Shown: piece after piece, positions 49,368 to 64,000 of the stretch
Layout of the letters: each line of letters opens with the position of its first letter
Position numbering within the stretch: position 1 is the first letter of the stretch
Origin: Zychaea mexicana
Taxonomy: Eukaryota; Mucoromycota; Mucoromycetes; Mucorales; Lichtheimiaceae
Reading direction: 5' to 3'
NCBI RefSeq assembly: GCF_025766255.1
Contig: NW_026516670.1
Location: 682,001 to 746,000, forward strand
DNA: 64,000 nt
Made by a program: the position numbers and the translations under genes
The notes under the pieces: model-generated
Told to the model about the DNA's origin: nothing
The model's input: the letters and a program-made list of their open reading frames with translations, nothing else
The model's database searches: none

Positions 49368-50229
49368 ATATGTTGGAAGAAAAGGGACGGGGCACAATAT
49401 TTTTTATATATATAGATTGTACATAATATGATTAAATTATGTTCCGTTGTTTATACGTGAGGCTCGAAAAAAAGGCTTTGTAAAACAGTAAGTTTAGGCT
49501 TGGAAAAGAGTTTAAGTGTGGGATTGTTTTAATTCGTTCAACAGTAGGAGAATTGCGGTAGAGTAGGACTACATTACAACTATTAGCGCTTTACCGGGTT
49601 ATACTGGCAGGGTTTATTGAAAGAAAAGCTGGGTTGAAATGGAATTATTAGTTGTAGCATTGGTGGATCAACTTTAATAATGGGGGTAGTGAGACTTCCT
49701 TATACAAGTCGAAAGTACTATGTAGTTCCTATTTTGACAAACACATAAGCTGATGGTTGACACGATTGTCTAACTACAGTACAGCGTAAGCCATGTTCAT
49801 AGTAAGATGGTGGCTTCGCTATTGGTAAACACACATCGGTCATTTTATAAGATATCAAAAAGCATACCTGAATCTGCAAACACACGTATTAATGTATGAC
49901 TCTACAGTAAACTCTCGTTAAGGTCACATCGATGGCTATGATTCATGTATTGGATACTGTAGACTCAATTGTATCGTGGAACTAAGCTATGACAGTTAAG
50001 TCAGATGAACAGCAAGAACCAGGAACCACCGCGTAGCACGTTACTCAAAAAGAAAAATAAAGACTGAGGATGAATAAGTGGAGCAAGACGATGGTGAGGG
50101 CGAGGAGAAGGAGGAGCCGATATAGTGAGTGCGTTCGTTTTGTGGTCTTTTAGCGTATTTCTGTATGAATGCTCAGCAAATGGATCGTTTCAACAACATT
50201 TAAAAATAAACAAGCATTATATAGACACT
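49368..50229. other. convergent intergenic region with a solo pogo-type terminus
   Basis: About 860 bp between two facing stops. At 49904-49932 it reads TACAGTAAACTCTCGTTAAG then GTCACATCG, matching the style of the CAGTAcCCgCTCGTTAAAgcGATCACC terminus at 59722, but no inverted partner was found nearby. No gene. Confidence 0.45.
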
Positions 50230-51692
50230 TTATTCCATTTTTGTCATTTTCTGCTTTTCCGAGACAATTGAATCGGCATGTACACCGCCCACCATCTTTG
50301 CCAAAAAAATAACCAAATCATTCATTTTACGAACGCCGAAAAATAATGGGATCTTGTTGGGAGCAGACAATTCAGGATGAACGGTTTTGCCGGATGCCAA
50401 AGGCTGACCGTAAGGAGTGGCTGGCTTGGGTGTTGCCATGGTAGCCATGATCACATACTGTAAAAAATTAGTTAGTTAAGAGTCAAATAAGTCTCATAGT
50501 GCGAAGAAACACATACGCTCGGGTACAAGATGGCAAACACAGCACCGGAGTGTAAGGTTGACAGGAAGAACGTCAACACAGTGATTGGCGTGCCTATTTT
50601 TCGTTGTTATCTTTTACGTGCATAAAATATAAAACTAACCGAGATTCCTGTTCTTGAACAACAGCGCATATTCATCCTTTCTCTTCTCTTACCGAAACCC
50701 AAAAAGTAAGCCCAGTGTTCCTCCATAAACGTCATGCGTTGTTCCAATGTCCATCCCATGTACAGCCACTTGTATCTGGAAATAATAAAAGAGCAAGGGT
50801 CGTTAAAGACTGGGCCATGACGTACTTTCTGGAAGAGGACGCGTTAAAGAAACTTACTCAAAGCAGTAATAAGACATGATGGCACAGTTCATAAGAAATG
50901 CAAGCAAAGTACCGACATGCGGGATCATACTGCGCAAGAGACCAGCAAAGACGCCACAGTTCATATAGAAAATAACAGTGTAGATCATGGATGCCATGCT
51001 TTGTACGATGTTTGTAGAACCAGGCGTTGTGCGTGGATTGTTCTTGGCTTGGAGTTGGAAAGCCTTTTCAGCTATAGGTGTAAAAAACTTGCCGTTTATG
51101 CCAAGTGTTCCAAAATACAGTGGAAATCCTGTGATAGTCTGTTGTTGTTGAAAAAGAAGTTGTATCAGTTTATACCGCCCATCATCTTAGTTAGCTTGCC
51201 AACTCGGTGTACGCCATAAAAAATCATTACTGCTTTTTTTTCTTACCGCATAAGAGCAGCCGAATATACGATGTTCTGGTGCATTGTAGAAGATTTCTAG
51301 GAACAGGACGCCACCTAAAAATATAATGCCGTTTATGAATAAGGCTTTAAACATTGACTTTTGAACGGTCGAAGACCTATGTAATGTAGTAATACGAGTA
51401 TTATTTAAATGTCAAAAAAAAATACCCTGACCTATATACCACGCAAACAAGTGAAGTATGCTGGCGAGTCAACTTACGAGTAAAAGAGAATAAAGGTCTT
51501 TGGCCAGTTGAACGCTTGCTCGGCGCCATTGAGAAAGTAATTCCAATGCTGAGAGAGTGGAGATTGCGTAGATGTGGCCATTGCTTTCTGGATATCAAGA
51601 CTTGAAAGGCGCGTGGGCTGGACTGAATTCTTCACGACCGGGAGAGAGGGAGAGCGGCGTCGGGGTTGCTGCATGATTCGGGAGTCGTGCAT
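50230..51692 (-). CDS. EI24: EI24/PIG8-like ER membrane protein
   Basis: Multi-pass ER protein of the EI24 (etoposide-induced 2.4) family, tied to autophagy and membrane contact sites in animals and distantly related in fold to bacterial CysZ. Five or six exons. It starts with a basic Arg/Ser-rich segment (MHDSRIMQQPRRRSPSLPVV), then WNYFLNGAEQAFNWPKTFIL, GIIFLGGVLFLEIFYNAPEH, NIVQSMASMIYTVIFYMNCG, IPHVGTLLAFLMNCAIMSYY, and the family hallmark KWLYMGWTLEQRMTFMEEHW followed by AYFLGFGTP. It ends SIVSEKQKMTKME. The W-x2-E-x-R...HW-x-YF-x-GFG block supports the family call. Confidence 0.85.
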
Positions 51693-51830
51693 ATTTGTAT
51701 CGTGCCCATCATCATCCCCTTGCGCGTTTCAATGGAACTCTGTACTTAGCGATCATGTATATTGCCGAGTAGCAAGGATTAAATGTAAGTAATGATTATG
51801 CTGTTTATTGATATATACAGGGGTTACAAA

Positions 51831-53160
51831 CTAATGGTATTGTGCGTATTGATTGTAGTTGCTGTACTGGTAATGACCGTGAGCATCGGCGGTTTGGTTG
51901 CTGTGAGTTACTGAAACGTAATACCGGTTTATATATTGCTGCGCTTCCTCTGTGAATGGCATATGTAAGAATGAGTTAGAGGCCGTAACTCAAGCGGTAG
52001 AGAAACACTTACCTAGATTCTGATTAAGCATTTTCGCTTGCTTTCGCGCCCTGGTTAGTTCTTCTTCCATTTTCTTTGTCTCCTCTTCTGCCGCTGCTAG
52101 TTCTGTTTTCATAATGACGTGTTCCATGCTAATTTTACTATGCTCCAATTCGAGACTTGCATACTAAACAAAATCCAAATGTGCAATAAGAGCAAATGAG
52201 CCAACGCATAGTAGCCAGTTTCATCCAAAGTTTCTACACTACGCTAAGAATGCTAACCTTCCTTCCGAGATCTGAGATTTCATCTCGCATAACTTGGACT
52301 TCTCGTTGTTTCACAATCAGTTCCTGTTCTTGGTTTTGTCGAAGACCATCCGCTTGTGCCTTTTGAACATTAAATGAGATTTTCAGCTCGTCAAGTGCTT
52401 TACATAACTCTTGATTTTCGGACTTCAAAGCTGCTGCAGTACCGGCGCTTCCATTGCTTTGTTGCAGCTGTTGTCTCATTGTGTTATTCTCTTCTGTCGC
52501 GTGGTGTAGGTGATTTTTCAAACCCTCAACCTCCCGCATTAGTGAAACGTTACTATTCAAGCACCCTGTCAACCTTTGCTCAGCCGCCGACAGCTGCGAT
52601 CGAGTTTCGGCGAGGTCCGATTGAGTTTTTTCGTTTTTGTGCTGCTGTGTCTTGAGCTGACGCTCAATGTCTTCGATATCGATAGGGGGGGACCCTTCCT
52701 GAGTAGCAGTAGTAGTACGCACCGATTCCAACATCGGGGTGGCGGTGCTCTTTGACAGGTTAACGGCCTTCATGACCAGTTCATAAAGTCGGAGAAAATC
52801 TTTGTTCGGACCGTTGTTGTTGCTGTCCTTGTCAGAACCTGTGCTCATGGCTCGTTGCGATTGTTCTTTTGCTTGTAGTTCCAACAATGCTGAATTTTCA
52901 GCCTGTAAAAGTTTGACCTGGTATTGGAGCTCCTCATTTTGAATAGTTTTCTGAGCAATGACTTTTCGACCCTTGGTAATAAGGCGTTGAAAGGCGTCGC
53001 GTTGGTCGTTTATGACACAGTGGCAGTCGTCCAGGGCATGGGTGACTTGGTCGAGTGTAAGTGAGTCGCTATTGCTGCTTCTACTACTGCTGGTTTGGCG
53101 TTGAAATTGATCATATGGAGCAAGGGGAGCACTGGTGGTGTTTGCAAAGCCGTTAAACAT
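51831..53160 (-). CDS. coiled-coil protein, unrecognised
   Basis: Three exons (53160 to about 52259, a middle exon, and a last exon ending at TAG 51833-51831). The first 30 residues are low complexity. Then come long heptad-like helices: CHCVINDQRDAFQRLITKGR, VIAQKTIQNEELQYQVKLLQ, QLKTQQHKNEKTQSDLAETR, LMREVEGLKNHLHHATEENN, LCKALDELKISFNVQKAQAD, VKQREVQVMRDEISDLGRK, and exon 2 with TELAAAEEETKKMEEELTRA. The tail is Tyr/Gln/Asn-rich (HGHYQYSNYNQYAQYH). Probably a dimeric scaffold, with no motif that names a family. Translation is continuous across both introns, so the gene model is sound. Confidence 0.75.
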
Positions 53161-54350
53161 CTTTTTGACAGTTTGACGCGGAAGAAGTAAGAGAGGAGTG
53201 TCGTCAAAGAAAAAAGGGCGCTGCGTTTTTTTTTAAAACGCGTTACTCGATTACAGGTTATGTACCCTCAAGTGAATTCATTGTTTATGCTTTGTTGATG
53301 GACCCGCATATTGCATCAATAGGTGTAATAGTATGTTATTTTGCTTCCTACTGTGGAGGCTTTTGATCGGGAGTACATACTATCCTTACGAAATCCAGAC
53401 TGCATGATGATTTAATGACCAACGAAGAACAGTGTTTGCTAGGTGATAGACCATAGCGCGAATCAATCATTGTGTTTTTCTAGTTGATTGACAATGTATA
53501 AAGTGAATGGATCACAAATTGAGGCCACATAGAATGGCACGGTCCACTGCAAATTGAAGGCTTGTGTCTGTCGTTTTTCTGTGTCGATCGGTTGCCTTTC
53601 TTGAACGGTGGTACAAGGTACAAAATCGGATTTGCGGAAGCGACATTTTGAAGCGACATGAAGCTTTTTACAGCTCGTAGGAACATTGACCGTCGACCAA
53701 CATGGGATATTCGTCTACCGATGCCTGTAAATCAAAGGTAGTCAAAAGGAATGTTTCGAATATTGATCCCTTTGGAACACACATGCAATATGTCTAATTG
53801 TAGTTCAAGTGAAAAAGAAAGCGAGCTCGTCGTCCTCTGTCCACTGCAATAGGTCAGGGAAATGCTTACTATGCACTATACTTGGAAAATCTTTAGCTGG
53901 TCCATAGAGTACCTTCAGGCGCTATTCATAACCCATCACTCTTCCGGATCCTACACAACGAAGATGCAAATGTTTCCTCCTAAAGTGTTGCGTCATGCTT
54001 TCAAGCTGTGTGACGTGAACTCTTGAGACGAGCTGTGGATACGATGTGATATCCTATGCTGGTCAGCAGACCAGACTATATGAGTTTCCGACGAATTACC
54101 ACAAAAAAGACCATTTTATTATTTTAATAATAAAGATACTGTGTAACAAATATTTCTTATAAAGTACCATAAAAATTGTGGCGAGGCAAAAAAAAAGACC
54201 CCACACAATGATATTGTATATCAGCATGGGTGTCGCAACGAGAACTCACGTCTTCCTTTTATAGTTAACCTACTTTTCGGTACGCGCGTTCTTACCAAGA
54301 TTTTAAAGTATGCAAGCAAGGAACCCTTTGTTTGTTCTCTCGTACCAAAT
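53161..54350. other. intergenic region
   Basis: About 1.2 kb, AT-rich. The left end is the coiled-coil gene's upstream region; the right end is the 3' flank of the tandem-exon gene. One open frame around 53480-53686 lacks protein character. Nothing supported. Confidence 0.5.
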
Positions 54351-57282
54351 TTAACTGAATTCACTTTCTTCTTCCACAAAGAACTCCCGGAACAGGTTCG
54401 AGGTAAGAGTTACTTGGATGAGGGGCGCCTCTTTGCGATTGTCAGTATATGATTCTAGCTTTGCCTTAGTAGCCGCATGGACACGTTCGCGACAGTACGG
54501 CTGTGGGGGCGGGGGAAGAGGTGGCGACGGAGCGGATGAGAAAGCGGCAGCAGGTGGTTGCTGTTGTTCTTGGTGAATAGAAGATGACGCTGCAACTTCA
54601 TTTGTTTTCGTACGCTTTGGCAATGACTGCTGCGGCATCGACCCTAGTAATGGCCGCAAAGCGAAAGCTGTTGTTAGTACGCATGCATCTGTATAGCAGT
54701 TAAGAGAGTTAAGAGACACTTTATTGCCTAGTACTACCTGTGTTTAATTGTTCAGTTTCGCCACTGTCATTCTCGCGAGGACGCTTTCTGACCAGTGGCA
54801 GAGATGCTGATGCTAATGCTTGTTCGTTTAGCGTTCCTCGCATACTTGGTTGATTTCCCGAGGTATCGACTGTAGTAGGGCGCGTTTCTCGTGACGCTGA
54901 TAATGAATCGATGGAAGAAGTGCCTGTGGCAATACACTCTATATCAGAATGAGCATTACATAACAACTGTTCTTTATCGACCCTAATGAACCCCTTCCAG
55001 ACTAACGTTCAGAAGCGTTTTCAGCGCGCTCCTCGGTCACCACAGGTGCACCCGTTGTTTCTTCAGCTGCTAGTTGTGGTCCACCAAGTTGGCTCGAAGA
55101 AAACGTCGATGATTTTCCTGTTTTCAATCGTTTAGAACTTTTTTCTTCTAATGAAGACGCTGAGGATTCCGAGAAGATATGCAACAAATGTTAGTATGTG
55201 TTTAGAACGAGAAAAGTGATCACATTTGCTGCAGTGACATACATGTGCTTTGGTTTTGCGAGTGGCCCGTGTTGGCGCCACTGTCATTAACATTGAATGT
55301 ATGTTCCAGAAGTTCGGGCTGACGACCGCGCTTCCGGCCTAAATAATACGATGTTATTGTTATTGTCTCTGTTGTTGGTTCTTCTTGCTCTCGAGCCTCT
55401 GAAGCAATAGTAGTAGTAGTAGTAGTAGTAGTAGCAGGAGCAACTTCAACCGGAAGCGAGGACGACGGGTTGTCTATTATATCATTACTAATATAAGCAT
55501 CGTAGTCTGTTTATATGATACCTTTTTGTTCGATTAACAGCTTTACCTTGAATCTTATTCGATGTGGTGGGTTCAACTTTGGCAGTGGAATCAATATTCA
55601 GTTGCTCAGTTCTTTCTGGCATAAGACAATCAATGTCTTCTCGAGCCTTTGAAGCAATAGTAGTAGTAGTAGCAGGAGCAACTTCAACCGGAAGCGAGGA
55701 CGACGGGTTGTCTATTATATCATTACTAATATAAGCATCGTAGTCTGTTTATATGATACCTTTTTGTTCGATTAACAGCTTTACCTTGAATCTTATTCGA
55801 TGTGGTGGGTTCAACTTTGGCAGTGGAATCAATATTCAGTTGCTCAGTTCTTTCTGGCATAAGACAATCAATGTCTTCTCGAGCCTTTGAAGCAATAGTA
55901 GTAGTAGTAGCAGGAGCAACTTCAACCGGAAGCGAGGACGACGGGTTGTCTATTATATCATTACTAATATAAGCATCGTAGTCTGTTTATATGATACCTT
56001 TTTGTTCGATTAACAGCTTTACCTTGAATCTTATTCGATGTGGTGGGTTCAACTTTGGCAGTGGAATCAATATTCAGTTGCTCAGTTCTTTCTGGCATAA
56101 GACAATCAATGTCTTCTCGAGCCTTTGAAGCAATAGTAGTAGTAGTAGCAGGAGCAACTTCAACCGGAAGAGAGAACGACGGTTTGTCTATTATTATATC
56201 ATTACTAATATAAGCATCGTAGTCTGTTTATACCTTTTTGTTCGATTAACAGCTTTACCTTGAATCTTATTCGATGTGGTGGGTTCAACTTTGGCAGTGG
56301 AATCAATATTCAGTTGCTCAGTTCTTTCTGGCATAAGACAATCAATGTCTTCTCGAGCCTTTGAAGCAATAGTAGTAGTAGTAGCAGGAGCAACTTCAAC
56401 CGGAAGCGAGGACGACGGGTTGTCTATTATATCATTACTAATATAAGCATCGTAGTCTGTTTATATGATACCTTTTTGTTCGATTAACAGCTTTACCTTG
56501 AATCTTATTCGATGTGGTGGGTTCAACTTTGGCAGTGGAATCAATATTCAGTTGCTCAGTTCTTTCTGGCATAAGACAATCAATGTCTTCTCGAGCCTTT
56601 GAAGCAATAGTAGTAGTAGTAGCAGGAGCAACTTCAACCGGAAGCGAGGACGACGGGTTGTCTATTATATCATTACTAATATGATCATCGTAGTCTGTTT
56701 ATACCTTTTTGTTCGATTAACAGCTTTACCTTGAATCTTATTCGATGTGGTGGGTTCAACTTTGGCAGTGGAATCAATATTCAGTTGCTCAGTTCTTTCT
56801 GGCATAAGACAATCAATGTCTTCTCGAGCCTTTGAAGCAATAGTAGTAGTAGTAGTAGCAGGAGCAACTTCAACCGGAAGCGAGGACGACGGTTTGTCTA
56901 TTATTATATCATTACTAATATAAGCATCGTAGTCTGTGTATACCTTTTTGTTCGATTAACAGCTTTACCTTGAATCTTATTCGATGTGGTGGGTTCAACT
57001 TTGGCAGTGGAATCAATATTCAGTTGCTCAGTTCTTTCTGGCATAAGACATTCAATGTCTTGTAAGATTGATGCGAAAAATGGGTTTGTAAAAGACGAAT
57101 GAATATAAATGTCAACGGTCGTCGCACTGCCCAGTTGCGATTGCGTGCATGTACTTTGGGTAATTAAAGAACTTATGGTTGACAATTATTATACCTGTGT
57201 CCCTCAACGCGTCGGGAGGTGTGTCGTTTCCAAACACGTTAAGTCCAAGTGCCTTTAAAGTGAGTTGTATTATATTCGACAT
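54351..57282 (-). CDS. novel gene with tandemly duplicated 55-aa exons; function unknown
   Basis: Twelve exons assemble into exactly 683 codons (682 aa), and all eleven introns are phase 1. Exon 1 (57282-57195) encodes MSNIIQLTLKALGLNVFGND then TPPDALRDT. Exons R1-R8 follow (57058-56969, 56897-56730, 56661-56497, 56423-56259, 56187-56023, 55949-55785, 55711-55547, 55473-55243). R2-R7 each encode about 55 residues: DNPSSSLPVEVAPA (DKP in two copies), a Thr run, SKARE, DIDCLMPERTEQLNID, and an end at SNKIQ. R1 has only the second half. R8 has the first half, then diverges into QEEPTTETITITSYYLGRKR with an AT-hook-like RKRGRQP. Three further exons carry basic patches (SSKRLKTGKSS, LVRKRPREND, SLPKRTKTNE) and end EEESEFS. 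The composition is disordered, acidic/Ser/Thr-rich with possible nuclear signals. No family recognised. Confidence 0.8.
55243..57058 (-). repeat. tandem array of exon+intron units, period about 238 bp
   Basis: Seven repeat periods. Each unit is one exon (165 bp; 168 in R2) plus one intron of 68-73 bp (71, 68, 73, 71, 73, 73, 73 in transcript order). The units are nearly identical, introns included. R2 and R5 share DKP codons and a 71-bp intron variant, whereas the others have DNP and mostly 73-bp introns, suggesting a three-unit higher-order duplication (R2-R4 and R5-R7). A (TAG)n/(ACT)n run varies in length between copies and is longest in R8. Confidence 0.92.
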
Positions 57283-57807
57283 TGTAGCTTTGTCGGTTGG
57301 AGAATGGAAGAAGAGTGACAGCTCAAAGGTTGTTTGACACGAGCGAAGATAAAAGGGCGATGGGTCTTCAAGTTGCTGCGCACCACATGACAACACATGA
57401 AAAATACATGCTGTACGAGGAACTAGAACAAAATGCCTGGACTGCGAAAAAACCATGCGTTTGATTATGTAGATCGGCAGGATGGTGGCCTTGTTAGGGT
57501 TAGATCCTTACAAGGTGCAATGTCGCTGCCCTGACTTCATCCGACGAGGCTCAACATGCGAATACATGTATTTGTTTAACAGGGTAGAAGATGTTTCCTT
57601 GCCACCTGTGCACCGGTCATCCGCTGTCCCCACTTCCACCGCCACAGAAACAGAAGCAAGTCCATCCCAAGAAGCAATCTTTGCAAAGGTATATTATATA
57701 TATATGATGTGCGCTATCCATATTGTCACTAACTTTGTAATAGATTCCAGGTGACCTTTCAGAAACTATCCAAATAACAAACCGGTTGGCAGGTGTGACA
57801 ATTCCAA
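57283..57807 (+). pseudogene. decayed SWIM-type zinc-finger gene
   Basis: Protein-like blocks occur in different frames in one direction: first LCRLENGRRVTAQRLFDTSE with MGLQVAAHHMTTHEKYMLYE, then a stop. After a frame change comes VQCRCPDFIRRGSTCEYMYL, and, after a possible short intron (GTATATT...TAATAG near 57689-57742), IPGDLSETIQITNRLAG and a stop. The second block is a SWIM motif (CxC...CxH) in which the final His is Tyr. SWIM proteins of this kind accompany MULE-like elements or expanded fungal gene families. Frameshifts and the lost ligand argue for a pseudogene. It lies head-to-head with, and within the promoter zone of, the tandem-exon gene. Confidence 0.5.
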
Positions 57808-58434
57808 CTTGATGAGTTGTTGTCTAGGAGGTAGAGAACGAACAGCCCGATAGTGATGCCCTGCAACATCATCGTTTTTTGCGACTGCTACCTGGCATGT
57901 TGTTTCGTCGGTGAATGTCATTTCATAAAGATTGCTTTTTATCACGGTGGTACGCTCTGCCATATCAACTCCGTATAGAACGCCTAAAAATGGGCCGAGT
58001 GACCCATAAAGCAAAAGTGTCATCTATGAGGGGCCCCTAATTAAATACCAGCGACAGTACAGTATGCAAGACTTGATAAGAAAAAACGCGAAGTCGGCAC
58101 ATGGAGGGAGAATTATAACGAAGTCCTCAACTTGAAAAAAAAGCGGCCAAGTCATATATTTATAAAATCGTCTTTGGTGATTTCTTTCGTTGGATGTGTT
58201 GTGCTCCCAAGTCTTCAATGTTGACCATGAATTCTCAAGAGACTGGGAGACTTGGTTTATGTAACGAGCAGCAATGGGCAAATAGTAATCTGGTGACCTT
58301 AAGCTCAAATTGAGAGCGGCTCTGTCTAAATATGGACACGTATTGCACTTAGGCCTGTACCGGTCCGTGGAAGGCGGCTGGTTCAAAGGCAAAAGACTTG
58401 CTGTACTCACGATGCCCAGCATGATAACCACCAA
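57766..58434 (-). CDS. hypothetical protein in two collinear open segments, unrecognised
   Basis: The upstream segment (58434-58024) reads MLGIVSTASLLPLNQPPSTD, then YRPKCNTCPYLDRAALNLSL, YYLPIAARYINQVSQSLENS and ends at TAG. The downstream segment starts with ATG immediately after that stop, in the same frame: MTLLLYGSLGPFLGVLYGVD, MTFTDETTCQVAVAKNDD, ending THLPTGLLFG-like at 57766. A weak GTTGAG donor after WPLFFQ and the CATAG acceptor just before ATG 58023 would remove the stop and join the two in phase 0, so this may be a two-exon gene. A short hydrophobic N-terminus could be a signal peptide. No family recognised. Its 3' end overlaps the SWIM relic. Confidence 0.35.
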
Positions 58435-58530
58435 GAAGGATACGAAACTTTAACGCGCTGTATCGATTTCGGCGCTCTCCATAATCGCAATCGCGATTTT
58501 TATGTTACCTGGCAATCGATGGGTGTTTAT

Positions 58531-58690
58531 TGCAGATATTGCCACGCTCAGGATCACACCCGATCGCCCTGATCCCGAATGCTTCAACTGTTGTTGTAAA
58601 GGTCATATTTCCATTGCATGTCCGCAACCACGAAACAGCTACCCTCGCAAAAGCGCCCAAGACGAACCATCCAACTGAACCATCATCTTC
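58531..58690 (+). pseudogene. tandem zinc-knuckle (gag/LINE ORF1-like) relic, frameshifted
   Basis: Two CCHC-type knuckles lie in adjacent frames: CRYCHAQDHTRS (C-x2-C-x4-H, last Cys lost at a frame break) and, +1 frame, CFNCCCKGHISIACPQPRNS (C-x2-C-x4-H-x4-C complete). Paired knuckles in this spacing are typical of retroelement nucleic-acid-binding proteins. The frame break and the lack of neighbouring reverse transcriptase show a dead fragment. Confidence 0.5.
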
Positions 58691-58797
58691 ACGCAAGAAG
58701 TTCAAGGTGGCTCGAACCACTTCGATTCCAAGGCAGCACAAGCTCAAAGCAAGGAGCGAATTGCTAGTGAGCGTGGAAAAGTTGCTACCAAGGTGTA

Positions 58798-59247
58798 ATG
58801 TCCAAGGCTGTCAAATGGATTAATCACAAAGATTTTCGGCTGAACACCATTACCACCATAAGATCTCCGTCATGTCATTATCGTGCAGTTTACCGTGGAG
58901 AACAGCCGTCAGAATACTACTTTGAACACTCAAACAATGGCGAGCCTTTTGGAACTTTGACCTATCGACAGTCAGAAATGAATGATCTCGCACGTTGCTT
59001 GGAAAAACTATCTTGCCGCTTGACACTGGCTACTATACTTCCTCACGAATTCGACAACAGTACCTGCCCAATATGCAAAACGACATTGACGATGCACCAG
59101 GAAATGAACGATCTGGGTGTCAGTTCTCTCATAAGTACTGCTGATCAATATATCATGCGAAATACTAACAGAATGGCATCTTCTCTCTACAACTCCCGTC
59201 GAAACCGCCGCGTCCATTGTCACACTACTTTATGTATTCACAATTAA
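58798..59247 (+). CDS. hypothetical 149-aa protein, possibly a relic
   Basis: Open from ATG 58798: MSKAVKWINHKDFRLNTITT, then CHYRAVYRGEQPSEYYFEHS, NNGEPFGTLTYRQSEMNDLA, CLEKLSCRLTLATILPHEFD, then STCPICKTTLTMHQEMNDLG and a Ser/Arg/Asn tail ending LCIHN. A CPIC pair and other Cys/His residues hint at metal binding. It sits just after the zinc-knuckle relic in a decayed region, so it may be the surviving end of the same dead gene. No family recognised, no promoter seen. Confidence 0.3.
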   Translation: MSKAVKWINHKDFRLNTITTIRSPSCHYRAVYRGEQPSEYYFEHSNNGEPFGTLTYRQSEMNDLARCLEKLSCRLTLATILPHEFDNSTCPICKTTLTMHQEMNDLGVSSLISTADQYIMRNTNRMASSLYNSRRNRRVHCHTTLCIHN

Positions 59248-60468
59248 ATAGCTTATATGCACAGTCATGTAGACCCTTTTAATTTCATATACTCAAGCTT
59301 TTATATCCCTTCCTCATACCGCTTAATACGTAGTCTGTACATAAAAAAATCGACGCTTTTTTCAGCGCGCCTAAAAAATTATATACATGTAGGGCTGTTA
59401 TTGTATAACAGTCCTCTCATCGATTCCTACTAGCGTACTCGTCAAAATACTCAATTCATTATAGCTGAACTAATCTTCTCGCCATGTCGAGAGTTATATA
59501 GATGCCTGACTGTGCACGTATCCCACATTAACTTTAAAAAGTGCTCACTGAGTTGTCCTCTCGATACATACTTCACAATGCGCGAAACAAGATGCTTGAA
59601 AAAGTGCTGTAAAAGACAAATCAAATATCCTTAGGAGCTATCGATGTAAAACTACGCAAGAGCAAGTGATCCGTAATATCTTCAACCGAATCTTTCTTCT
59701 TCTATCTCGAGAAAGCCAATACAGTACCCGCTCGTTAAAGCGATCACCTTTAACCGATATTTCGTTAAACCAATCACTTCCCCAATATACCAGCTTGGTA
59801 AGCAGTATGTATGTCATATAGTGGACCCTCAATCTTTAAACCGATCATTCGTTAAACCGATCACTTTCTCGAAAAACAGAGGTGATCGGTTTAACGAGCG
59901 GGTAATGTAAAACGAATACAGTATTTTTCTGCTTACATAGGGTTTAAAGGTATTGCACCATCCTACATAGTATCATCGGACATGGTTTTGAAAGGCTGTA
60001 TCAATATCAATGTCGCGCTTCCTTCGGCTATCATTCTCCCGGCATACGATATACACCTCTTCAGTACCTGAAAGCTCATATTGAGGGTATGAATGCTGCT
60101 CTAACCAGCAAGTGTTATAATGCGAAGAGCACTTGGCCTCAGGATGTAAAGAAGGTAAACAGGTGAATTTTTTGCATATCAAATAAAACATGTTGACTTT
60201 AGCGTACGTTGCTATGCTTATTGTAAAAACAACGAGAGAGACGCTTAAACATAAACATTCGCCTTGAAATATCTGCTCGCTGTGATCATAGTTTATGAGC
60301 GAGGAATATTGTAGTGATGATGGTGCTGCGGTAATGGGATAATCCATCTTGCATGTAGTGCGATTTTAAGCGCGCATCGGAGCTTTTCAGTAACGTAAGC
60401 AAACAAAAACGAAACTTTGGCAGCTCCCTGCTTCTCCTCTTTTATATTTTTTTTTGTGACAAACAAAA
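59248..60468. other. intergenic region with a MITE, upstream of COA6
   Basis: About 1.2 kb; contains the inverted-repeat element at 59722-59907. The 60 bp before COA6 is T-rich leader sequence. No other gene supported. Confidence 0.5.
59722..59907. mobile_element. pogo-type MITE, 186 bp
   Basis: The left end after TA is CAGTACCCGCTCGTTAAAGC then GATCACCT; the complement of the right end is CATTACCCGCTCGTTAAACC then GATCACCT (28 bp, three mismatches), followed by TA. TA target duplication at 59720-59721 and 59908-59909. The interior repeats CGTTAAACC(G/A)ATCAC in direct orientation. No coding capacity. Terminal sequence differs from the 35372/36789 family, so it is a separate family. Confidence 0.85.
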
Positions 60469-60821
60469 ATGACAGCAGCCGAAAACGCAAAACCACCAAC
60501 GCGTCAACAACGACAACACTGCTGGAAGTTACGCGACGAATACTTTGCATGCCTCGATAAGTTATCCATTGTCGATCCTGTCATTGTCGAAAAAGAACCA
60601 ACCAAGGCCAAGGAATGTCTCGAAAAGAAATCACAGTACGAGGATGCATGCATGGCAAGTTGGGTAAGTTCTCAAGGTCATTATCTTCAATCAACCCTTC
60701 TTTATAACACAGACATTATGTATATCTTTTTGTATAGGTTGAATATTTCAATAAACGACGAGTACTGGACGTAAAACAGCGCGAATATCTAGAATTCTCA
60801 AAGCAGCAATCCGGCAAATAA
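60469..60821 (+). CDS. COA6: cytochrome c oxidase assembly factor 6 (COA6)
   Basis: Intermembrane-space twin-Cys protein needed for copper delivery to the CuA site of COX2. Two exons (60469-60663, 60738-60821), 92 aa. MTAAENAKPPTRQQRQHCWK opens it; CWKLRDEYFAC is the CX9C motif and CLEKKSQYEDAC the CX10C motif characteristic of COA6 (most twin-Cys proteins have CX9C twice). It ends SWVEYFNKRRVLDVKQREYL then EFSKQQSGK, the family's conserved W-x-x-YF-x-KRR block. Stop TAA 60819-60821, only 65 bp from the facing stop of the TFIIIC gene. Confidence 0.95.
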
Positions 60822-60886
60822 GCATTTGTACATATATAACAACACCACCAACAACAACAAAATAACATGGTTTATTACTAGTATCC

Positions 60887-63800
60887 CTATACACTCGAAC
60901 CACACATTATACATTTTTGACATTCTTGTAATACCAGTTCTGTTAATGATTCGGGAGGATGGGTCCCCTTTGGTATTAAGCTCTTTTCTCCACATAATCC
61001 ACATACGCGCAAATTGCTAGATGCCAATACACGATGTGTCATGCTGCAACAGCCTATATAATAAAGCCATGACTGATAAGCATATCATCTATCTCGACGA
61101 CAACGACGACAGCAGCAAGCCTACAACGGACAACACTTACCCCACATGTGTAACGACGGACATACAGCCAAACGGTCGCCTTTGATAGTAAGCAATTGTT
61201 GGCAACCTGGACATGTCTCTCTTCCCGGTAATGGTTCTTTTAAATCATTCCCATCCAGCAAATCTATTGCAGTGTCCATCTCTCGTTGTAGCAAAGCCTT
61301 TTGTGAAGGATCCGATATATACGACTGGATAAGATCTTTGCAGGTCATTTGAACTTGTTCCAGGGCAAACAGGATGGGCTCTTGTTGTGCAAGAATACGA
61401 TCACAAAATAGCAAGATGACCATGATATCCTCATCTATATATAAATAGCAGTTATGAGTTAATATATGTACGTATCTTTTTACGCTTCAACCAAAGCTAC
61501 TGTACACATACCATTCAGTTTTTGAAGTCGGTTTTTGGGTAGATTAAGGATATGATCCAGTGTCGTAACAGCAAATTGTTGTTTGAGAAATGATTTAGCT
61601 TTGCTGCAAATACTGGCTAATTTACGTGAAGCTTCTTCTGTTAGATCGTAATTTTTGAGATCCAACTCTGCACGAACGAGAATACGGGCTGCTGTCGTTC
61701 GTTCATCAAAGAATAATCTCCTTGCTAATGAATCCGTACTAATACTTGCGTTTCGGAAAGAAAAAAGACAGTTGAGTGATCTATTCTTTTCAATTGTTGC
61801 TACTACCACCTAAATGATTTTTCTTCCCGATTTACCTTTTGTTATACTGGCCTTGAGACATGAGTTCATCCAATTTCTCTAACCATCGAAGCACTGCTTT
61901 ATTATCGTCTTCATCCACGATATATTGTAGTGACTCGTGAAGTAATTGTTGGACAGGCGAAGTAAAGACTATATAATTATACAATATTTTGGTCAAACAT
62001 TTGCTTTCAGGTTGTTCCTTAAAAAAAGAGAGAGAAAAAAAAACTTACAAAATTCAGGATCCTTGGCATACGTTTCGACCGTATCACATATTCCTTCAAT
62101 AATTTTGTCATCTTGACGCTCACGATGTAACAAAAAGCCCAGATAAATAAGATCAGTGTAGCCTGAGCCATAATAGTTTATATCCCGGCTTGAACGAAGC
62201 CTAAAACATATATATAGAAATGATAAAAAAAGCGTGTGTGTGTGTTAATAAGCGAGAAAAGGAGAGACAAAGATGAGCGATGCATGAGACGAGAAAAACT
62301 CACGTAAAAAGCACTGCTGTGAATAAGCCAGTGGTTGTATGTGCCGTAGACCATAGTTTGGGCGTAACAGCATTGGCTGTAGCTAATGTTTCTCGATCCA
62401 TCTTGTCCTGCTCCAAAATCCATTGATGGTTTGCTTTATTTACGAGTCGTTCGTTGGTCTGTGCTGATACTGGTTTGTTGTACGTGTATTTGGCATGGTC
62501 ATCGACGTCTAATACTACACATTGTAGATCATATGTATACATTTGTAGCTGTGTTCCATCAGTCGCCCATCTGGCGCCTGGAAATAAAACACGATTATCC
62601 ATCCATCAGGTTATTCAGTTGCTGCTGGTGGCGGTTGTGCCGAAATCATATGAGGACGAGAAATGCGTCGTTTCTCACCTGATAAACCCATTACTGTGTG
62701 CTCGAGATAATATTCTGATTGATGGTCGGCAATATCGTCGTCGTCATCGAGTATCATTGACAAAATATCGACACGTGCGTTTTTACACAATGCTACCCTG
62801 ATCGTTTTACCGTTTTCGCTTTTCTAATAGAGAAAGTGTGAGATGCGGTAAATACTAGGAAAAGTTTAAGAGCAATGTTTGTTCTATAAAAAAAAATGTC
62901 TTTTCTTCACCAGATTATCCCAAATGGATAGAACGCTGATAGTAGCAGGATCAGACTCGAACCAAGTCTTGGCGACAGTTGCCACTACAGACTGAATGAC
63001 AGTTTTACCAGCATCATCCGCTGATACAACTACTTCCACAGTAGATAGTGCAGCTGTTCCATCCGTACACGTCGAAATTAAATATGCCGTGTCTATAATG
63101 AGCCCCACAAGTTCAAGTGTGCATGTGTTAGCGCCTTCCTTTTTCTCTCAAGTATACACATCACACATCATAAAATCATGAGCAAAATAGACACATACGT
63201 TTGCTACCGTGAATTCGCCAGTGACTCCATTCGACCAAGTTGACAAAGGATTGGTGCGGTTGAACAGTGGTGCAAAACTGTGCTCCTGATGCAGAATGAT
63301 AACTAAGAACAATCAAGTCAATACATGATACCAATATGAGCGATATAATTCACGTCATTATGCAGTAGCCATCGAGACGAAAAAAGGAGTGGTTACCTCC
63401 AAAGTGTAATTTCGCCAGCCTTATTACCCAATGCAATCAGAGCAGGTTTCTCGTTGAAAGCATCAGGAATGATACGCGGCGACCATGCACAACCTATATT
63501 AAGCCCGTTTCCGAAAAGATAGTTAGTATGTAGTCATATACGAGTGTTTTCTTTTCTAACGCCTCAACACATAGACGCAAATGAATAAGAAAGATTATTT
63601 ACAAAGGGTATGAAAACGGTCGAGTTCTTCCAGCGTATCGAATCTGTCTTTCGATCCCAAGACATGGTCTTTTATTAAGGGGGTCATATCGAGGCACTAT
63701 GTACATGCATATTGTAGTTAATAAAGGAAACAGATAAGGTTTTTTAGTAGACGTATCAATTGCCATTTTCAAATTTGCCATGACTAAAGTCGCTCTCATT

Positions 63801-64000
63801 CTTCTTACGGTTTCAAAATATTCTCTTGGATTGGGCGCACTGTATAATGTTACTTGATGTTGTGTTGTTATGACCGCTAATATGCACCTATAATATGTGC
63901 GCGTTAGAAGAAAACAATGATGCATGTGTTCTGAACTAGGCGACAAGTTACCTTTTCATCTGGGATAATCCAGTCGGTGACCATCGTGCACAACGATATG
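60887..64000 (-). CDS. TFIIIC subunit, TFIIIC90/GTF3C4-like; 5' end beyond window
   Basis: Component of the RNA polymerase III factor TFIIIC that recognises tRNA-gene promoters. From the right edge inward: RCARWSPTGLSQMKRCILAV, ITTQHQVTLYSAPNPREYFE, then GCAWSPRIIPDAFNEKPALI with ALGNKAGEITLW, the WD40-type N-terminal domain of the family. Further blades and helices follow through 61.4 kb (LLDGNDLKEPLPGRETCPGC, QQLLTIKGDRLAVCPSLHMW). The last intron splits the zinc module; the final exon gives CCSMTHRVLASSNLRVCGLC, GEKSLIPKG and ends QECQKCIMCGSSV. The paired CxxC C-terminal zinc module is a TFIIIC90 hallmark. Many short introns. The first WD40 part and start codon lie past 64000. Confidence 0.85.

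Follow-up and report, generated by a model that had tools for sequence, protein, structure and literature searches.

The stretch of DNA analysed here (the window) comprises 64,000 nucleotides from the Mucorales fungus Zychaea mexicana (Lichtheimiaceae) and is part of contig C273 in an assembly of 50.3 Mb and 305 contigs. On the minus strand, from 57282 to 54351, a 12-exon frame was placed base by base. It consists of 2049 nt, equal to 683 codons with the stop (682 aa), and its 12 exons are free of interrupting stops and frameshifts. Exons 2 to 8 encode 361 residues. Exons 3 to 8 have lengths of 168, 165, 165, 165, 165 and 165 nt, introns 2 to 8 have 68-73 nt, and half-units of the repeat are found in exon 2 and at the start of exon 9. 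The 12 exons, the 683 codons, the six full and two half repeat exons and the 361 array residues of the original prediction were all confirmed base by base. The features are as follows.

54351..57282, minus strand: entire gene, 683 codons including the stop in 12 exons; the deposited model P0002 covers exons 1-8
57195..57282, minus strand: exon 1, single copy, 29 aa plus 1 nt; 55% identical counterpart in L012
57059..57194, minus strand: intron 1, 136 nt, phase 1; its 3' tip is the upstream edge of the duplicated segment
56969..57058, minus strand: exon 2, first half-unit; the counterpart exons have 105 nt in C288 and C284
56730..56897, minus strand: exon 3, chimeric repeat exon, 168 nt
56497..56661, minus strand: exon 4, chimeric repeat exon, 165 nt
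56259..56423, minus strand: exon 5, chimeric repeat exon, 165 nt
56023..56187, minus strand: exon 6, chimeric repeat exon, 165 nt
55785..55949, minus strand: exon 7, chimeric repeat exon, 165 nt
55547..55711, minus strand: exon 8, chimeric repeat exon, 165 nt; P0002 continues into intron 8 and stops
55243..55473, minus strand: exon 9; the last half-unit takes up its first 84 nt and the remainder is single copy
55160..55242, minus strand: intron 9, 83 nt, with a TACTAAC branch motif; probably related to intron 11 by copying
55007..55159, minus strand: exon 10
54738..54938, minus strand: exon 11
54644..54737, minus strand: intron 11, 94 nt, with a TACTAAC branch motif
54351..54643, minus strand: exon 12 with stop; the 3' 143 nt are strongly unlike the C223 copy
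55390..57060, minus strand: seven-unit array; units start at 57060, 56821, 56588, 56350, 56114, 55876 and 55638
52121..58678, no strand assigned: segment duplicated on contig C223 (L011); 57770-58292 is inverted there, and 2 units are present there against 7 here

For exon 12, two acceptor sites had to be weighed. The later site, at 54643, has a TACTAAC branch-point motif about 30 nt upstream in six of the six family members printed, and the early site is without its AG in two of these six (C284 and C112). The later acceptor, giving 683 codons, was therefore preferred and the early one (697 aa) was dropped. As counter-evidence, the deposited model P0001 of the C223 gene uses the early site.

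Tandem Repeats Finder located the array at 55420-57061 with a period of 238, 6.9 copies, 97% matches and a score of 3042; a second row for the same array had a period of 474 and a score of 3067. The tandem array in this gene is not due to chance. The units measure, in order, 239, 233, 238, 236, 238, 238 and 249 bp, the last one with a longer TAC run. Units 3, 5 and 6 do not differ from each other at any position and the remaining pairs differ by 1-5 bases (gaps uncounted), with distinguishing changes in units 1, 2, 4 and 7. Between the window units and those of C223, 1-6 base differences were counted, again without the gaps. Every unit holds a whole intron together with the flanking exon parts, and the introns of the array are near-identical copies. 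When the whole genome was searched with one unit, 11 matches were obtained, confined to C273 and C223. The unit was not found by this search as a satellite or dispersed repeat outside these two contigs.

The junctions between the units were then compared with the single-copy members of the family. In six of six cases in the window, and in the one case in C223, the inner junction reads GGCTCGAGA followed directly by AGACATTGA, and in both genes the end of intron 1 stands before the first unit. To the right of the junction are the last bases of intron 1 and the beginning of exon 2, and to its left is sequence from within exon 3 of the single-copy gene; by inspection the two sources share one base. 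With a one-base overlap, the first duplication would therefore have needed no pre-existing repeat. In the paralogs on C288 and C284 (deposited as P0003 and P0004), exons 2 and 3 are each present once, as separate exons, with a single copy of the intron between them; exon 2 has 105 nt, exon 3 has 222 or 210 nt and the intron 85 or 83 nt. Since these relatives have one copy, the extra introns of the array indicate a gain and not a loss.

It had been proposed that the gene grew by duplication of one exon. A pre-existing single exon of 55 aa, duplicated by crossing-over in the flanking introns, would account for array exons that are all 55-56 aa long and phase-symmetric. However, a free-standing 55-residue exon is absent from both paralogs with complete models (C288 and C284), where the homologous sequence is split across two exons by an intron, the copied segment spans an intron, and the array junctions fall within coding sequence and not within introns. 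This explanation is very improbable and the earlier proposal was abandoned. Judged by the junctions and paralogs, the 55-residue exon is evidently a fusion that arose as a by-product of the duplication, not the product of a one-exon duplication.

Instead, the gene was likely lengthened by an internal tandem duplication of intron-spanning DNA. The copied segment runs from the last bases of intron 1 through exon 2 and intron 2 to about base 84 of the next exon, and its copies are arranged head to tail. Each junction joins a partial exon 3 to exon 2, which generates a new chimeric exon of 55-56 residues, and intron 2 is copied once more with every unit. The frame is kept at each gain or loss of a unit, since the intron has phase 1 and the coding length per unit is divisible by three. 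Later changes of the array may have occurred by unequal crossing-over or replication slippage. The consequences of exon skipping were also computed. The frame is kept when any one of exons 2-9 or 11 is skipped, so that the predicted tolerance to skipping holds for any array exon; outside the array it fails for exon 10, where skipping leads to a stop.

The second locus is part of a 6.5 kb segmental duplicate; the window regions 50000-52120 and 58679-63999 are without an adjoining match on C223. In the C223 gene 2 units are present, which make a single chimeric exon, and the frame is intact, with 423 aa when the early exon 12 acceptor is used and, by subtraction, 408 with the later one. Outside the array and exon 12, the two loci differ at 1/222 and about 10/744 bases. 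Since 7 units face 2, and since three of the seven window units are identical, the gain or loss of units probably postdates the split of the two copies. The unit number has evidently changed in frame between the window gene and the C223 copy, the direction being either way, which bears out the predicted in-frame change of copy number as a difference seen within one genome, at two loci, and not among isolates, with a count that rests on one assembly. The wholly identical sequence of three of the seven units could have led the assembler to miscount them. However, units 1, 2, 4 and 7 are distinguishable and the second locus carries the unit twice, so a unit number that is an assembly artefact is improbable.

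Several other differences and elements were observed in and around the duplicated segment. The end of exon 12 (54351-54493) shows 16 differences to C223 in 143 bases, compared with 1 in the neighbouring 150 bases, and over exon 12 as a whole 16 nonsynonymous changes and 1 synonymous change were counted. This end is a candidate for fast change or a conversion tract. The C223 copy (L011 3389-3674) has an insertion of 273 bases flanked by two copies of GAGCTGTGGATAC, for which window 54030-54042 represents the empty site. With 13 consecutive T at one of its ends, the insertion resembles a reversed SINE, and Rfam gave no believable match to the insertion (one at E 0.38, far below the gathering score). 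At 59719-59909 the window has a MITE-like element of about 190 bases with inverted ends of about 31 bases, of which many full and partial copies were found on other contigs with 85-97% identity. A dispersed repeat at 58303-59227 has stretches with 74-86% identity on C35, C262, C243, C201 and C274, and the right edge of the segmental duplication (58678) lies inside this repeat.

The deposited models were compared with the full frame. P0002 (BDB00DRAFT_925667, 409 aa) has exons 1-7 and the start of exon 8 as in our model and then ends with a stop inside intron 8. It gives support to the predicted splicing, not proof. P0001 from C223 (298 aa; L011 4001-5509) starts inside exon 2 and has a 427-nt intron that jumps exon 9 and part of exon 10, a layout that is a candidate for a mistake or an isoform. 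P0001, P0002 and P0005 all disagree with the full frame and were counted against our main reading, in which the array introns would be spliced as drawn.

The array introns have the donor GTAAAG, compared with GTAAGA in the paralogs, and are without a good branch motif. A GTAAAG donor looks weaker than GTAAGA, and both traits weigh against our main reading. Conceivably, the array might work as a length generator at the RNA level, with weak donors that let one or another of the seven near-identical introns be retained. In the computed products, retention of any array intron leads to a stop after a further 19-21 codons, and the added tails all start with the same basic stretch, GKAVNRTKRY. A ladder of 80, 136, 189, 246, 299, 354 and 409 residues would result besides the 682-aa form, and the deposited 409-aa P0002 coincides with one rung. 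Nevertheless, we give this possibility little credence.

To describe the gene family, we list the genome matches as lower bounds. Multi-exon matches were found on at least C273, C223, C288, C284, C112, C103 and C34, and further matches comprise at least two short stretches, at separate places on C236, and an exon-sized one on C148. Five proteins of this family in the public database come from Zychaea mexicana. Among the best 7996 and 7992 candidates scored in protein searches, which were crowded by low-complexity words so that distant relatives could be missed, no relatives outside Zychaea were found. A literature search under the name Zychaea mexicana found nothing. The window gene appears to be a fast-evolving gene that so far has been found only in Zychaea, within the searches made.

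The DNA downstream of the paralogs on C284, C288 and C103 matches a part of P0004 with a C2H2-like finger, a part that is absent from the window gene. In P0004 this is the stretch CPYRGC...HLKKRH, which matched Pfam PF17017 only at E 0.33. A protein search with the finger-like part found only P0004 among 220 candidates, and a C2H2 finger was not found by Pfam in window exons 9-12.

Coding constraint was estimated from dN/dS ratios. With all exons, the window gene gave 0.61 against C288 (bootstrap 0.45-0.82) and 0.62 against C284 (0.46-0.83), values in which part of the signal comes from exon 12, whose C-terminal half aligns poorly between the window and the paralogs. Without exon 12, the ratio was 0.64 against C288 (rough z for pN below pS, 2.5), 0.72 against C284 (1.8) and 0.93 for C288 against C284 (z 0.3). 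The window and C223 copies gave 1.65 (0.65-6.65). These ratios suggest a weak constraint on the protein in the family. They also bear on a different view of the locus, namely that the gene is a relic or in decay, with the array as a minisatellite and a frame that is open but out of use. Weak signals in the array introns, the end of P0002 in intron 8, a ratio not below 1 between the window and C223 copies and a constraint that is slight without exon 12, and absent for C288 against C284, would all fit a relic. However, the 12 exons of the window and the C223 copy are without stop or frameshift, and the all-exon ratio of about 0.6 to the older paralogs has intervals below 1. The array lengths are multiples of three, which is a weak point against a relic, since the TAC runs vary by threes anyway. 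Overall, a relic is unlikely.

All 11 introns of the window gene are phase 1, as had been predicted. Also in P0003 and P0004 the first five introns are phase 1. The phase is not universal in the family, since a single phase-2 intron occurs further on in P0004 and the deposited P0005 model (C103) has phase 0 in three of its seven introns. We then compared introns with each other, in tests where i3 and i5 denote the window introns 9 and 11. Introns 9 and 11 with their flanks, taken as a consensus of four members, had a local score with z 8.5 that was reached by none of 1000 dinucleotide shuffles, and in the alignment the donors, the TACTAAC motifs, the acceptors and the K-R-x-K-T codons were all in register. 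In this consensus-level test of 10 comparisons, the 8 others besides 9/11 and an overlapping pair gave z -0.3 to 1.5. With the DNA of the single genes, intron 9/11 gave z 5.1, 2.0, 3.0 and 2.4 (21 comparisons); as a control, the unrelated pair of C288 introns 2 and 4 gave z 3.3 (1/300 shuffles). The profile comparison assigned the 9/11 pair a probability of 38.6%, compared with 0.8% and 0.3% for two controls. At the protein level (36 comparisons, four genes) the scores were mostly within those of the shuffles, with z 0.9-2.1 for exon 9/11 and z 1.2, 1.6, 2.9 and 5.4 for exon 10/12; C284 exon 10/12 was the sole case with 0/300. The adjacent-intron pairs i3/i4 (z 11.7-12.8 per gene) and i1/i2 (z 8.0 in the consensus) were dropped, as the cut segments physically overlap. 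The intron 9 counterpart starts with GC (GCAAGTCA) in three paralogs (L012 3178, L013 5149 and L015 about 4899), and with GT in the window.

These comparisons moderately support an earlier duplication of the same type, which would have made introns 9 and 11 and the flanking exon ends. If introns 9 and 11 are copies, the 11 introns would probably reduce to about four independent ones (1, 2, 9/11 and 10). The uniform phase 1 would then largely reflect copying, because introns 2-8 are copies of one intron and introns 9 and 11 are probably related in the same way. So the predicted phase was found in 11 of 11 introns, and these amount to about four independent facts instead of eleven.

The window protein is acidic, with a pI of 4.7 and a charge of about -35, and S, T, P, Q and N make up 43% of it. 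It was scanned against Pfam in pieces (exons 9-12, the unit and P0002). At E <= 1, nothing was found for the 55-aa unit, window exons 9-12, the 423-aa C223 protein, P0001, P0003 and P0005, and the predicted lack of a known family was upheld for the first three of these. Five weak to moderate matches were obtained with P0002, among them Rib_5-P_isom_A at 1.9e-6 (28 bits) and KaiA_N at 3.4e-6 (27.6 bits). Both are just above the cut-offs and none of their stretches passes alone. We disbelieved the P0002 matches, since they read as sums over a perfect repeat. In the tail, exons 9-12 encode the four basic patches RKRGR, KRLK, RKRPR and KRTK. An AT-hook has the core RGRP. The basic patches of the original prediction were thus recovered, whereas its AT-hook was not: the core is RKRGRQP, and neither window exons 9-12 nor the 423-aa protein of C223 gave a Pfam AT-hook match at E <= 1.

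A structure predicted for P0002 alone showed a beta-repeat with a mean pLDDT of 71.5 and a pTM of 0.73. According to the available text of PMC11795689, AlphaFold 2 gives confident-looking beta-repeats for perfect repeats of random sequence, and Foldseek against the PDB returned no match to the P0002 model at E <= 0.001 (96 matches at E <= 10, of which 50 were listed). For these two reasons the model was rejected as evidence for a fold. The prediction for P0004 with three relatives had a mean pLDDT of 39.4 and was uninformative or indicates disorder. As a guess that we hold at well under even odds, the protein may be nuclear and largely disordered, with the array, which is acidic and rich in S, T and P, as a spacer of variable length; the four basic patches of exons 9-12 also led to this guess.

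We also considered whether the gene encodes a secreted effector with repeats, as the SP7 family of arbuscular mycorrhizal fungi does. The SP7-like effectors of Glomeromycotina are modular with variable hydrophilic repeats, and several have a nuclear localisation domain, as described in the available text of PMC11333574; the window protein resembles them in its hydrophilic repeats of variable number and in its basic, nuclear-localisation-like patches. However, it is without a signal-peptide-like start, since simple hydropathy detected no such stretch at the N-terminus (best 11-residue mean 1.6, with a lysine inside). In addition, PMC11333574 reports no hint of such proteins in Mucoromycotina, and among the best 7996 candidates the protein database search yielded Zychaea proteins only. 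An effector of this type is extremely improbable.

The closest known case is CNN00420 of Cryptococcus neoformans (Sharpton et al. 2008, PMC2395259). As far as the available text describes it, this gene has six introns, of which 2-6 are copies or near-copies, with repeats of about 107 nt, a unit number that differs among resequenced strains, and splicing backed by ESTs. The window gene shares four features with this type of intron gain at the sequence level: a unit of exon ends and a full intron, introns that are identical or nearly so, a copy number that varies between related copies, and relatives that lack the extra introns. Both genes are fungal. The window gene differs in that its units have 233-249 nt, introns 2-8 are the related ones, the variation is between two loci, there are signs that a similar duplication took place earlier in the same gene, and the splicing is predicted. 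The original prediction had regarded the system as a candidate for something undescribed. This stands for the family, within the searches made, and not for the mode of growth, as growth by intron-containing repeats has been published for Cryptococcus (PMC2395259, in the part available).

An intron of the potato RdRp gene was likewise gained by tandem genomic duplication, which, in the account available from PMC4974935, extended across an intron-exon boundary. There, a single duplication took the donor of the new intron from exon sequence, whereas in the window gene whole introns with both splice sites were copied. The repeats of the yeast FLO genes lie within one exon, whereas every unit of the window gene holds an intron. 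In both, the unit number shifts, in yeast by slippage according to the available text of PMC2395259, and the protein length alters.

Taken together, the window gene is a clear further example of a route of intron gain known from a few genes, and not a new kind of system. Beyond CNN00420 it offers a larger array, fused exons, a second locus with two units and signs of an older round. One genome carries all three forms, from the single copy (C288 and C284) to 2 units (C223) and 7 units (window). Uniform intron phase need not mean design, as the copies of one intron inherit its phase.
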